Origin: Fimbriimonadaceae bacterium
GTDB lineage: Bacteria > Armatimonadota > Fimbriimonadia > Fimbriimonadales > Fimbriimonadaceae
DNA: 54,874 bases
Assembly (NCBI GenBank): GCA_024710805.1
Contig: JANJUB010000098.1
Span: 1-54,874, forward strand
Reading direction: 5' to 3'
Of the stretch, positions 49,335 through 54,874 are shown in pieces. The position numbers and the translations under genes are program-made. Under the pieces are notes generated by a model. The model was not told the origin of the DNA and searched no databases. It worked only from the letters and a program-made list of their open reading frames with translations. The first letter of the stretch is position 1. Each line of letters opens with the position of its first letter.

Positions 49335-50300
49335 TTACGCTCGGCGTCTCCGCCACCAGACCACCCCGCCGACTACGACGGCGATGACCGCAACGTCGAT
49401 CGCGATGCGGGCCGGGGTCCACACCCAGTCCGAGGCTCCCGCATAGGTGAAGTAGAGGTCATCGGAAGTTCGGCGCGGGAATTCATAGTCGGTGTAGTGG
49501 GCAACTTCCCACCCTTCCGAGAGGCCCTTGATTTCGATGCCGAGTCCGGCCTTCAGATCGCGCAAAGCGTCGTTGGTGAGGCGCTCTCGCCAGCGAGCGT
49601 TTAACTTGTGATCGGTGTTGGGAACCTCGTTCCGATAGGAACCGTTCGAGACGAAGTACAGGAGCAGCCCGGCCCCTTTGTTTTCATCGATGTTGTCGTC
49701 GGGCACGAAGTAAGGGTTGAAGGGCCTCTCCGCTTTGAAGGACATCCGCACGGGGATGGTCTTCGCCTCGTCATCCGCACCGGCTCGGATCTTGAATGCT
49801 GTCAGGAACCAGTCCTTGCCGATATAGAATGCCGTCCATTCCTCGATCGACTTGGAGGTCACGTAGTTGTTGGCACGCATCCACTTTGCCAACGCCTGCG
49901 CATCGCTCGCACGTAGCGTCGTCGCTCGGTAGGCCCCGACGTCCTTCACTTGGACGACGTCGACCCCATCTGAGGCCGTCGCCGCGTCCATCTCTCCCGC
50001 CGAGCACGAGCACCCTATCGACGCCGGTCTGGGCCGCAGACTGGCCAGCGCGACATAGATTGCGGGATCGACCGTGCCGAGGTCAGGCACCGTCGGCGTC
50101 GGCGCAATAAAGCCGATGTCATCAGCGTCCGTGGCGAAGCGCGCTTGCCGAATGAAGTGTTGGGTCTTCGTATCCGCGTCCCAGATAATCACGTTCGCTT
50201 GGCCCTGAAAGACAACTCCTTTGCCGTCGAACGATACACCGCAACACGGCCATGCCGCGATCGGTAGCGAAGCCACAAGCGCAACTCCGAGCAACTTCAT
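49335..50300 (-). CDS. DUF2330 exported membrane-anchored protein
   Basis: 321 residues from the ATG at 50300, supported by TATACT 7 nt upstream; the frame is open further but reads non-coding sequence. Signal peptide MKLLGVALVASLPIAAWPCC, then the DUF2330 body (NVIIWDADTKTQHFIRQARF, ADDIGFIAPTPTVPDL, PVRMSFKAERPFNPYF) and one C-terminal helix (IAIDVAVIAVVVGGVVWW) followed by RRRR. It would be anchored with the domain outside. Function of the family is unknown. It is the first gene of an operon with the FEN nuclease and the zinc-ribbon protein. Confidence 0.82.
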   Translation of the reverse strand: MKLLGVALVASLPIAAWPCCGVSFDGKGVVFQGQANVIIWDADTKTQHFIRQARFATDADDIGFIAPTPTVPDLGTVDPAIYVALASLRPRPASIGCSCSAGEMDAATASDGVDVVQVKDVGAYRATTLRASDAQALAKWMRANNYVTSKSIEEWTAFYIGKDWFLTAFKIRAGADDEAKTIPVRMSFKAERPFNPYFVPDDNIDENKGAGLLLYFVSNGSYRNEVPNTDHKLNARWRERLTNDALRDLKAGLGIEIKGLSEGWEVAHYTDYEFPRRTSDDLYFTYAGASDWVWTPARIAIDVAVIAVVVGGVVWWRRRRA

Positions 50301-50313: not shown

Positions 50314-50358
50314 GGACGGTCTTTGGCGTAGTGCCCAAGCTCGCCACATCGACTCGCC

Positions 50359-50377
50359 GTTACAAAGCTGTTACAAA
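50359..50377 (+). promoter_or_regulatory. Direct repeat GTTACAAA x2 with 11-bp period (candidate SARP site)
   Basis: GTTACAAA at 50359 and again at 50370, 11 bp apart, in the divergent gap between the DUF2330 operon and the globin-like gene. SARP regulators such as DnrI and ActII-ORF4 bind heptameric direct repeats with this same helical spacing, and a SARP gene lies next door. Confidence 0.4.
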
Positions 50378-50432
50378 TGCGCCATGACCGAGAAATCGGG
50401 TGGATCGTAGGGGACCCTATGCGTACACCTTC

Positions 50433-50861
50433 ATGGATCGCATGACTAAACACCCGCCTGATCAGACGCTGAGAGAGCTGCTGAGCCCCTCATTTCTCCG
50501 GCACATTCCCGAGAGCGAGAACATCGCCCAGGAACTGGTGGCCGAGTTCGTGGAGGGCCATCCCGAAGTGCACGCCACGGACACCGAGGCGTTGGCGCGC
50601 CTGATCTGGCTGGCCCTCGCGACCGCGCTCGATCATCTCGACGACGCTCAGCAGTTCGCCGCGCGGTGCCGCGAGCTTGGCCGCTCCTTCGTGGGCCTCG
50701 GGCTACGCCCCCGACACTTTCCGGCTATGGCCCAACTCCTCCTGCGGCACTTAGCGCTTGAAGAGACCGAGGCCGATGCGTGGAAGAGGTTCGTGCTTCA
50801 GATCGAGCGGGCCATGGTTAGCGGATCCAAGCAAACAGGGCCTGGGCCTGCTCTTTCGTAA
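50433..50861 (+). CDS. Globin-like protein lacking the proximal histidine
   Basis: 142 all-helical residues. The stretch LDHLDDAQQFAARCRELGRSFVGLGLRPRHFPAMAQLLL follows the E-F helix pattern of flavohaemoglobin-type globins (LG-x-x-H-x-x-x-x-x-x-P-x-x-Y), and EADAWKRFVLQIERAM matches the last helix. Where the haem-binding proximal His is expected the sequence has Phe or Ser, so haem may not bind; it could be a haem-free sensor domain. The 3' end overlaps the convergent SARP gene by 44 bp. The start is ATG 50433 or 50442. The family call is tentative. Confidence 0.45.
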   Translation: MDRMTKHPPDQTLRELLSPSFLRHIPESENIAQELVAEFVEGHPEVHATDTEALARLIWLALATALDHLDDAQQFAARCRELGRSFVGLGLRPRHFPAMAQLLLRHLALEETEADAWKRFVLQIERAMVSGSKQTGPGPALS

Positions 50862-53736
50862 CGGGTAGTTCGTGGGTGCACACTCCGCCGAAATGGGCGG
50901 CGGCGGCATCGCGGTGATCGATTTCGGACTCAACGACGATCAGACCTAGCTCACGTTCTAGGTCTCGGGCAAATGCGATGACCTGCCGTGCGCGGTCGGC
51001 ATCGCCGTCGTGAAAAAGAACCTCGGCCAGCAGGGTCAGCGTACAGCAAAGGCCACCATAGTTGTCGTCCAGCACCCACCGTCGTCCCGCCTCGCGAACG
51101 GACCACCGGGATTCGTCCCACTTTCCCTGCAGGATCAAGGCTCGACTCAAGCAGTGCAGCTGATCCGCTTCTTGGTAAGGGCTGCCGATGGCTTCCCAGA
51201 TTCTTAGGGACTCACGCAGTAACGCTTCGGCTTCCTCTGGTCGTCCGTCGGCGGTGGCGATTCGACCCTCGGTTTCGTACAAGAAGGCCGCGGCAACGGG
51301 ATCTCTCAGCCCGCGCAGCGATTCCTTCGAGCGTTCGATCGCCTCCAATGCCTCTCGCCTGCGATCCGTGAACCAAAGCGTGGCTCCGAGATACGTGCCC
51401 AGCGAGGGGAGTTCGGTTTCGGCGCCGGTAGCCTGCAGTTTCTCAAAGGCCGCAGAGAGGCACTCGAGTGCCTCATCGGCGCGTCGCTTGTAGTTGACGA
51501 TGACTCCCAAGAGCCGAAGTGCCCGCCCGGTGAGATAGGTGTCGCCGGCGTCCTTCGCAAGTTCGAGCGCCCGTCTGGCCAAGTCCTCGCTGGATTCGAA
51601 CTCGCGCCGGAAAGCAAGCTGGGCTTCGCTGAAGGTCAGTAAGGCCTCCCATGTCGCTGAGCCCTTGACCCCACGTGCGCGCTGAAGGGGCTCTCGGGCA
51701 CGCTCCTCTTGGTGGCACGCGAAACACAGGTGGGCAAGGGTCAGTTCGAGCTCGATCGCTTGGTCCGGGGACGTTTCTTGCCCCCGAACGCGATTTGCCT
51801 CCAAAAACTCCAGCAGGGCCAGGCTGCGACCACGGCTCATCTCCAAGCGCGCGACCTTCTTCGCGCTCGGCCAGGCACGCTCGGGCTCATGGTCGATGGC
51901 CCAGCGCCAGGCGAACAGAATGTTGTCCGCCTCCGACTCGACGAGGTCGATCACTCGGCGGGGCAGGGGCTTCCACGGAGCGATGTCATGCTGGGCGAGC
52001 AGTTCGAGGACGGTGTGCACCGCCGTCCGCTCCAGTGCCTCCCGGGCATCCTCGCCCTGGCGCCTTTGGACGTAGTTACGAACGGGCACCAACATGCGGA
52101 CTCGCACCAGCCCTGAATGATCTTCCATCGCAAGCAGGGCAAGGTCGAGCAACGACTCGATCAGGTCCAAGTACGGCTCGTCGGCCAGCGCCAAGCCGCA
52201 CAGGTCCATGCCCATGCCACCGGGGTACGCCGAGATCCGGTCTACCGTCCGGAGCTGCGCCTCCGACAGGCTGTCAAAGCTCGATACGAGGGCCGACTCA
52301 AGTGATCGGTGGCGATCAGGGAGATCGTGTGCCGACGAGCGAGCGAGCGCATGGTCGAGTTGTCGGAGCAGGTCCTGCGGGGAGAGCAGCCTCAAACGGG
52401 CCGAGGCCAACCTAAGCGCGAGCGGGTAGCCGTCGAGCCGGTGCGCGATCTGCAGCAGCACATGGGCATCCACGTCGGAAATCTCCGCGTTCGGACGGTG
52501 CTGGTGATAGGCGTTTCTCAGGAACTCCGCTCCTGCGACGCGCGGGTCGAGGGGGCCGACCGGGATCAGCTGTTCACCTTGGACCCGCGACGGGATCACC
52601 GACGTGATGAGAATTCGCAAGGTGGGCGCGAGCGAACGCAGATGGGAGATTCCGTCGGCCGCATTCGGCAGGACGCTTTCAAGGTTGTCGATAACAAGCA
52701 CGGTGGGCTCTTGATCGACGAGAACCGCCAAGAACTTGATCGGGTCGGCCTCGCCGGGCGGGTCGCTGCCCAACTGGGCCAGAACTTCGCGCGCCCATAG
52801 GCCAGGTTCCGCAACCTCTACCATCGAAGTGAAGGCAACCCGCCCCCCCTCAGATGCGAGTCGCTGGGCCACCTCGACGGCGAGCCGAGTCTTGCCGATA
52901 CCGCCCGGACCGACCAGAGTGACGACCCGGGTTGTGCTTGTGCGGAGTTGGTCGACCACCCGTGCGACGAGTTCTTCGCGACCGTAAATGGGCTCAGCCG
53001 ATACCGGCAGCGTCGTTGACCAATCGGCGTCGGCCGTCGCGTCCCGCGTTCGCGCCGCAAGATCGCGGGCCAGGCGATCGCTCACGTCTGGCGTGTCGAC
53101 CCCAAGCTGTTCCTTCATCTTGCGGCGATAGTCTTGGAACTCGGCTACCGCCGCAGCAAGACTGCCGAGCTGGGCATGGACTTCGACGGCGAGCTTTCGT
53201 AAATCCTCATTCAGCGGATGTCGCGCGATCATCTGCTGGAGCAGTCCCTGCACCCGGTCGGCCTCGCCGGCCTGAACGGCTCGCGTGATCGCGGTTACGC
53301 CTGCGTTGACCTGGAGTTGGTCGGCGTGGCGCCGTTGCCCGATGACCCACGGGTCCTCCCAGCCGGGAAGAAAGGGATCGAGGATCAGCGACGGTTCAAG
53401 CGTGCGCGACGAGGAATGCTCCAAAACATCGAGGTCCGTGGCCAAACGCGAACGGTCTACCCAGACTTCCGTGGGCGACGAGCCGATAAGATCGGCTTGG
53501 TCACCGAGGGCACGCTTGAGCCGGTGGATCTCTTGTCGAAGTCGCAAGCGCGTCGCGTCATAGTAGTCTTCCGGCCAAAGCTGCTCGGCGAGGTGCTCTC
53601 GGGGCATCTTTCCAGACCGCGACAAGCTCAACAGGACGAGGAGCTTGGCGGCACGCACCGTGCCGAACGCCTCGATCGACTGGTCGTCGGCTTCGAGGCG
53701 AATACTTCCAAACAGGCGAAGTCGACACGTGTTCAC
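50818..53736 (-). CDS. AfsR/SARP-type transcriptional regulator (wHTH-BTAD-STAND ATPase-TPR)
   Basis: 972 residues from a GTG preceded by AGGA. Order: OmpR-like winged helix (about 1-95, RLRLFGSIRLEADD ... LRLRQEIHRLKRALG), bacterial transcriptional activation domain with TPRs (about 100-235), NB-ARC/STAND ATPase with P-loop GPGGIGKT (276-283) and Walker B TVLVIDN (345-351), then a long TPR superhelix (about 590-960). Streptomyces relatives (AfsR, large SARPs) switch on secondary metabolism; in other phyla they are orphan signal-gated activators. The STAND domain suggests ATP-dependent oligomerisation after a ligand binds the TPRs. It follows queF by 50 nt. Confidence 0.92.
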   Translation of the reverse strand: MNTCRLRLFGSIRLEADDQSIEAFGTVRAAKLLVLLSLSRSGKMPREHLAEQLWPEDYYDATRLRLRQEIHRLKRALGDQADLIGSSPTEVWVDRSRLATDLDVLEHSSSRTLEPSLILDPFLPGWEDPWVIGQRRHADQLQVNAGVTAITRAVQAGEADRVQGLLQQMIARHPLNEDLRKLAVEVHAQLGSLAAAVAEFQDYRRKMKEQLGVDTPDVSDRLARDLAARTRDATADADWSTTLPVSAEPIYGREELVARVVDQLRTSTTRVVTLVGPGGIGKTRLAVEVAQRLASEGGRVAFTSMVEVAEPGLWAREVLAQLGSDPPGEADPIKFLAVLVDQEPTVLVIDNLESVLPNAADGISHLRSLAPTLRILITSVIPSRVQGEQLIPVGPLDPRVAGAEFLRNAYHQHRPNAEISDVDAHVLLQIAHRLDGYPLALRLASARLRLLSPQDLLRQLDHALARSSAHDLPDRHRSLESALVSSFDSLSEAQLRTVDRISAYPGGMGMDLCGLALADEPYLDLIESLLDLALLAMEDHSGLVRVRMLVPVRNYVQRRQGEDAREALERTAVHTVLELLAQHDIAPWKPLPRRVIDLVESEADNILFAWRWAIDHEPERAWPSAKKVARLEMSRGRSLALLEFLEANRVRGQETSPDQAIELELTLAHLCFACHQEERAREPLQRARGVKGSATWEALLTFSEAQLAFRREFESSEDLARRALELAKDAGDTYLTGRALRLLGVIVNYKRRADEALECLSAAFEKLQATGAETELPSLGTYLGATLWFTDRRREALEAIERSKESLRGLRDPVAAAFLYETEGRIATADGRPEEAEALLRESLRIWEAIGSPYQEADQLHCLSRALILQGKWDESRWSVREAGRRWVLDDNYGGLCCTLTLLAEVLFHDGDADRARQVIAFARDLERELGLIVVESEIDHRDAAAAHFGGVCTHELPVTKEQAQALFAWIR

Positions 53737-53786: not shown

Positions 53787-54131
53787 CTACGGCTGGGGCC
53801 CGGATTCCGCGACGATCACCGATTCGATGCCGCCGCGGACGTTGAAGTTCGCGGTGATCCGCATCCAGCGCGGCGAGCAGGCTTCGACCAGTTCGTCGAG
53901 GATTCGGTTGGTGACGGCCTCGTAGTAGATGCCCTCGTTGCGGAAGCTGTAGTAGTAGAGCTTGAGGGCCTTGAGTTCGAGGCAGGTTTGGTCGGGGATG
54001 TACTCGAGTTCGATGGTGGCGAAGTCCGGCTGGCCGGTCTTGGGGCACACGGACGTGAACTCGGGGCAGATGTGAGTGATCACGTAATCGCGGTGTGGAG
54101 CAGGATTGGGAAAGGTCTCGACGTGCGGCAT
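53787..54131 (-). CDS. queF: NADPH-dependent 7-cyano-7-deazaguanine reductase (type I QueF)
   Basis: 114 residues, the size of unimodular QueF. It reduces preQ0 to preQ1 in queuosine tRNA modification. Active-site Cys in [17 protein letters not shown] with the Asp following, and the NADPH-binding family motif [21 protein letters not shown]. The ATG at 54131 is preferred over TTG/GTG codons slightly upstream. No other queuosine genes (queC, queD, queE) and no preQ1 riboswitch are seen; upstream are REP-like hairpins. Confidence 0.95.
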
Positions 54132-54163
54132 GGGCACCAAGAGGGTACCGCGGAAGGAGGGGT

Positions 54164-54858: not shown

Positions 54859-54874
54859 AGATCGGAAGAGCACA
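54859..54874. other. Illumina TruSeq adapter sequence at contig end (not genomic)
   Basis: The last 16 bases, AGATCGGAAGAGCACA, equal the first 16 bases of the TruSeq read-1 adapter. Adapter read-through was assembled into the contig, so this stretch should be trimmed. Confidence 0.97.

Follow-up and report, generated by a model that had tools for sequence, protein, structure and literature searches.

Which signal reaches a large SARP-type regulator, and through which partner? The question is raised by a locus on a 54.9-kb contig (54,874 nt, hereafter the window) of a 3.25-Mb draft genome, G000, which we take to belong to the family Fimbriimonadaceae of the Armatimonadota, a phylum of which few members have been cultured. 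Here, the gene of a 972-residue regulator with SARP, nucleoside triphosphatase (NTPase) and TPR parts (P0002; 50818-53736, minus strand, GTG start at 53736) converges on the gene of a 142-residue globin-like protein (P0001; 50433-50861, plus strand; an alternative GTG start at 50400 would give 153 aa), and two copies of the box GTTACAAA precede the latter. To our knowledge, little is known of the signals received by the sensor half of such large regulators. A first-pass annotation of the window had read regulator, globin-like gene and boxes, together with a divergent operon, as one small signalling unit. We compared the locus with that of the sister species (G001), with a sample of 113 genomes of the order and with one of 291 genomes of the phylum; a further sample of 61 relatives served as a control for the boxes.

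The globin and the regulator

By its Pfam match and its predicted fold the 142-residue protein is a globin. The Pfam model Globin (PF00042) scores 26.8 bits against a cut-off of 22, and an AlphaFold2 (AF2) model, for which an alignment with 17 relatives, containing other globins, served as input, has five helices, a predicted local distance difference test (pLDDT) score of 86.7 and a predicted template modelling (pTM) score of 0.79. In fold searches (Foldseek, VIA) nearly all of the matches listed were globins; the best one in VIA was cytoglobin (Z 15.2, 132 residues, root-mean-square deviation 2.6). The structure prediction thus bears out the globin fold that had been proposed from the sequence, and the convergent overlap with the SARP gene, noted at the same time, amounts to 44 bp at the 3' ends.

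The loss of the haem-binding histidine, also part of the first-pass annotation, holds for the window's globin. Helix positions B10, CD1, E7 and F8 were assigned by an alignment of 16 globins paired with a SARP, the position names being those of general usage. At F8, the place of the proximal His, this globin has Phe86 and that of the sister species likewise Phe, in both the CD1 segment is deleted, so that no CD1 Phe is present, and in both B10 Tyr is replaced by Val. Judged from these residues, the window's globin is not expected to bind haem in the conventional manner. As a property of the pair, however, haem loss does not stand: the proximal His is kept in 14 of the 17 paired globins, 13 of the 16 aligned ones keeping F8 His, CD1 Phe and B10 Tyr alike and the seventeenth (G134), which was read separately, keeping F8 His. 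The third exception, G094, has Glu at F8, Leu at B10 and still Phe at CD1, i.e. two lineages, the window's genus and G094, have lost their haem ligands and kept the SARP pair. This second degenerate globin (L088:8029-8568) also lies beside a SARP gene, its AF2 model has a pLDDT of 81.5, and its best Foldseek matches are globins with E-values of at least 3e-3.

In the window's genus the globin gene is under purifying selection and not decaying: the ratio of non-synonymous to synonymous substitution rates (dN/dS) between G000 and G001 is 0.158, and 0.112 outside the overlap with the SARP gene; for the SARP gene it is 0.076. The sister species encodes a second, unusual globin-like protein on contig C35 (L036:1489-1884); a search of its flanks gave no homologue of the SARP, and no counterpart was found in G000.

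The regulator has Pfam matches to BTAD (PF03704, 47.6 bits, cut-off 22.1; residues 121-216, 53089-53376, minus strand), TPR_12 (40.5 bits, cut-off 30.1) and AAA_22 (27.8 bits, cut-off 27). At its N-terminus Trans_reg_C, with 25.4 bits just below the cut-off of 26.2, covers residues 26-81, the expected place for an OmpR-type domain. The NTPase region, probably of STAND type (residues 250-353, 52678-52989, minus strand), contains the P-loop GPGGIGKTR and is delimited by an alignment of SARPs (A4) and by AAA_16, AAA_22 and NB-ARC matches, some of them below the cut-off (NB-ARC 20.6 against 23.5 bits, as is nSTAND_NTPase5 with 25.7 against 34). A PDB sequence search with the SARP gave generic matches only and no residue-by-residue mapping onto AfsR. 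About 50 bp upstream and on the same strand lies queF (53787-54140; PF14489, E 1.1e-31), which may be co-transcribed with the SARP gene in this genus.

Conservation of the pair

The Pfam globin model identifies 20 globins in 19 of the 113 genomes of the order. A SARP gene was found beside 11 of the 20 with three SARP queries and 1.5-kb flanks, and wider regions add G064 and G071. Throughout the phylum sample a profile of the paired globins (A3) has a match in 25 of the 291 genomes, one in each, and a SARP-type gene directly adjoins 17 of these 25 globins, as judged from the surroundings of each; the globins of G095, G082, G134, G015 and G046 lie under longer opposing frames and were located independently of the list of open reading frames. 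As SARP-like genes number some tens at most among ~3,000 genes, we estimate that chance would put a SARP beside a few percent of globins. On the sequence comparison the pairing is thus not accidental, and the gene pair first noticed in a single contig recurs across the phylum.

The pair occurs in three arrangements. Eight are convergent as in the window (G000, G001, G006, G070, G080, G094, G095, G097), five are tandem with the globin first (G065, G066, G082, G133, G134) and four are tandem with the SARP first (G063, with a short SARP, G064, G071, G120). An overlap of 4 bp joins the two tandem genes in G071, G064 and G120 and points to matched production of SARP and globin. In the SARP tree one clade, with support of 98 in the Shimodaira-Hasegawa-like approximate likelihood ratio test (SH-aLRT), has 11 of its 12 members paired with a globin. 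The remaining pairs belong to two further SARP lineages, so that the adjacency either had more than one origin or was frequently lost. The G080 SARP is represented in the trees by a 519-aa piece only, and G063 (short SARP frame of 434 aa) and G064 were excluded from the second tree. The G080 frame (L080, contig C54) has two in-frame stops and is either a young pseudogene or affected by an assembly error.

No published SARP-globin pair was found in the open-access literature searched. Two further genomes, G161 and G163 (L086:8354-8779, L085:7654-8100), have a single-domain globin with a proximal His between CheA-like and CheW-like genes, the latter identities being read from sequence, and this globin is another possible partner of a signalling system.

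The boxes before the globin gene and a candidate regulon

The two copies of GTTACAAA (50359-50366 and 50370-50377, plus strand), a putative SARP site, repeat with a period of 11 bp start to start and a gap of 3 bp. When up to three mismatches are permitted, the window has a single GTTACAAA-N3-GTTACAAA (shuffle mean 0.04), the whole genome of 3.25 Mb contains the pattern exactly once, and none of 300 and none of 200 Markov resamples reached an 8/8 match at period 11 in the 150 bp before the globin gene. In an alignment (MAFFT) of the window with the sister locus (L006), a block of 71 consecutive bases around the boxes (50319-50389) is identical, although the globin and SARP genes differ at 29-40% of their synonymous sites. 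The spacing had been likened to known SARP sites, and it does fit the geometry given for AfsR, whose site, in the sections of the study drawn on here (PMC10936776), consists of repeats with a spacing of 11 or 22 bp, the first 8 bp in every 11 being contacted by the protein.

Period-11 boxes with 8/8 matches, all containing GTTACA, precede the globin genes of G000, G001, G095, G070 and G080. In G095, G070 and G080 the upstream sequence is otherwise different, and in G070 there are three or four GTTACA copies, with one step of 12 bp. The boxes, like the gene pair, are conserved, so that neither of the refuting outcomes named in the first-pass annotation occurred. Elsewhere, CGTGACAA occurs twice with a period of 22 before the G094 globin gene, a different period-11 repeat, ATCTCACG, precedes that of G133 (8/8), and one with 7/8 that of G120; the period-11 signal is weak or absent in G006, G094, G097, G082, G065, G066 and G071. 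The 150-bp stretches searched were shifted by 1 base in G095 and G070, by 18 in G097, by 23 and 37 in G082 and by 2-3 in G065 and G063.

Among 13 genomes scanned, exactly these five have the exact box pair before the globin gene, and their SARPs form one nested clade; the other eight include G062 and G067, both of which lack a globin. The presumed recognition helix of the window's SARP is RQEIHRLKRAL. All five SARPs from GTTACA-box genomes have RQE[IL]H[RH]LKRAL, and the first His is replaced by Ser, Ala or Arg in the eight others compared (A4). Since the five SARPs form one nested clade, the co-occurrence of box and helix is one evolutionary event and not five. The repeats before the globin gene look like a SARP site, to which, as we infer, the neighbouring regulator would bind. 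Autoregulation of the SARP via the same box was considered and dismissed, the 150 bp before 10 SARP starts containing no period-11 repeat above 6/8.

The motif GTTACA-N5-GTTACA occurs four times in G000, three times in G001, twice each in G095 and G080 and once each in G070 and G065, and it is absent from the other seven of the 13 genomes. A reversed control occurs nowhere in G000, G001, G095, G070 and G080, once in G097 and twice in G082; across the remaining 59 of the 61 sampled relatives the motif totals 6 against 7 for the control. In each of the five box genomes one exact site is that before the globin gene. The remaining ones, three in G000 and two in G001, are all intergenic and precede paralogous exported proteins of ~700 aa, for which the two array members scanned gave no Pfam family above the cut-off. 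The sites on C198 (G000) and at C26:203567 (G001) are oriented with the following gene. The second sites of G095 and G080 also adjoin exported proteins, one sortilin/dockerin-like and one with a weak CHAP match, and the context of the single G065 site is uninformative. On contig C166 of G000 (L202:1257-19357) some eight exported paralogues of ~700 aa are encoded in tandem, with two of the genome's four exact box pairs between them.

A regulon search allowing one mismatch was abandoned in favour of exact sites, as control counts were of the same order as the matches. Two one-mismatch sites extend exact ones to three boxes at 11 bp (G001 C26, G080 C8), and ATTACAGAGGCGTTACA is common to G000 C170 and G001 C35. 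The exact sites may constitute the first candidate SARP regulon in the Armatimonadota.

A possible mechanism, its alternatives and known systems

Based on these findings we propose that the SARP, with its OmpR-like DNA-binding part, BTAD, STAND-type NTPase and TPR, may bind the two GTTACAAA boxes as a side-by-side dimer and control the globin gene as well as a few further genes that carry this box, i.e. those of exported proteins. The globin, in turn, would influence the SARP, in the simplest case through docking to the NTPase/TPR part and thereby setting its activity. The ancestral globin may have carried haem and reported oxygen, nitric oxide (NO) or the redox state, and in the window's genus, where the haem pocket is gone, it might sense another small molecule or serve purely as a protein partner. 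That the pair survived haem loss in two lineages argues for a protein contact, rather than haem chemistry, being what was kept. We lean towards this reading as a whole, if by a little.

Several observations weigh against it. Eight of the 25 globins have no SARP neighbour (G014, G015, G046, G088, G105, G106, G161, G163), and G062, the twelfth member of the well-supported clade, is a SARP without a globin neighbour. A scan beyond the sample, which did not hold the closest SARPs of every phylum and included other Armatimonadota and several incomplete loci, revealed a globin in the flank of only two of the best 80 SARP loci, L095 and L096, which are G095 and G080; among these 80 the pairing is not seen outside the Armatimonadota. 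Moreover, the paired loci G097, G082, G065 and G066 belong to the same SARP clade and have no period-11 box of at least 7/8 matches, and in the window no clear -10 hexamer was seen by eye 8 bp after the second box, nor was there a promoter match on the plus strand. The sites on C166 and at C26:169877 are oriented opposite to the following gene, for which we have no explanation, and with two of the three other G000 sites reversed the regulon is at odds with the activator geometry of AfsR. Finally, the motif could belong to another OmpR-type regulator.

The globin might instead be a target only, i.e. an O2- or NO-handling single-domain haemoglobin under the control of an O2- or NO-responsive SARP, with no signalling back, and a relic in the window's genus. 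This would fit both the pocket residues kept in most paired globins, as in haem-binding bacterial globins, and the position of the box, which precedes the globin gene and not the SARP gene. A haemoglobin enzyme without haem would, however, be expected to decay, yet the window's genus, despite its lost pocket residues, shows a dN/dS of 0.11-0.16 and an unaltered promoter block, and the separate second loss, in G094, also left the pair intact. We regard this explanation as unlikely.

It is likewise improbable, in our judgement, that a different OmpR/PhoB-type regulator binds the GTTACAA repeats, with the SARP-globin neighbourhood as a separate fact. Response regulators of this type also use direct repeats spaced by ~11 bp, and the two reversed G000 sites would cause no difficulty. 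Nevertheless, the exact box pair before the globin gene is confined, among the 13 genomes, to five of one SARP clade, whose SARPs share the RQE[IL]H[RH]LKRAL helix, unlike the eight others (counted as a single event), and the motif is nearly absent elsewhere in the family. Inheritance of a single ancestral adjacency without any function would suit the 11 of 17 pairs that fall into one SARP clade and is very hard to reconcile with three gene arrangements, a SARP tree whose supported branches require no fewer than four label changes and SARP identities of only 23-46% outside the genus (A4).

Returning to the proposed feedback between SARP and globin, a more specific version, which we offer tentatively and expect may well need revision, is a SARP/STAND activator with a dedicated globin subunit from a separate gene, once a haem-based gas sensor and now haem-less in at least two lineages, in a feedback loop that would also control the arrays of exported proteins. 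In either form, a conserved partner gene of gas-sensor ancestry would provide a direct candidate for the signal of large SARPs, with a DNA box as the readout. Additionally, as the pair exists in haem-keeping and haem-losing forms, the transition from a haem sensor to a haem-less one becomes testable within one regulatory setting.

The divergent DUF2330-nuclease-zinc-ribbon operon, which the first-pass annotation had included in the unit, was described correctly as to its genes, i.e. DUF2330 (49335-50300, minus strand; PF10092, E 2e-16), a 5'-3' exonuclease (E 1.6e-29) and a zinc ribbon (E 1.6e-8). Its membership did not hold up, as G001 lacks the DUF2330 gene here but keeps the 71-bp box block; in the window the gene has its own promoter-like site (50337-50308). 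A relative of REP-type/IS200-like transposases near the end of the contig (54467-54856, minus strand) scores 20.3 bits with Y1_Tnp against a cut-off of 23, and the last bases (54859-54874, AGATCGGAAGAGCACA) are probably an assembly artefact, presumably of Illumina adapter sequence, which they resemble.

Three known systems come close. Single-domain bacterial haemoglobins such as those of Vitreoscilla and Campylobacter and Hell's Gate globin I are among the sequence and fold matches, and the paired relatives share B10 Tyr, CD1 Phe and F8 His with them, whereas none of the three remains in the window's protein. The large SARPs of Streptomyces (SARP-NOD-TPR), AfsR among them, resemble the window's SARP in domain order and, according to the sections used here (PMC10936776), in the direct-repeat spacing of 11 or 22 bp. 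In them NTPase and TPR modulate the DNA-binding part. The window's SARP differs in its box and its phylum, and it scores only 59.4 bits on the AfsR equivalog model (NCBIfam NF053617, cut-off 1430), far below the level of that equivalog; it also has a globin partner gene, whereas those sections mention none for AfsR. The third comparison concerns RsbR of the Bacillus stressosome, the pXO1-118 type and MabR, for which the parts of two accounts considered here (PMC4976288, PMC11617747) describe a globin fold used in signalling without haem, with haem-binding relatives in the RsbR family (Vibrio). None of these, RsbR and pXO1-118 structures included, is among the 50 matches listed in the fold search, where classical globins led, which does not amount to an exclusion. 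The window's globin shares with these proteins the globin fold without haem ligands, and the paired globins share with the RsbR family the split into haem and no-haem forms. In RsbR and MabR the globin forms one domain within the signalling protein, whereas here it is a separate protein of 142 residues encoded beside a SARP.

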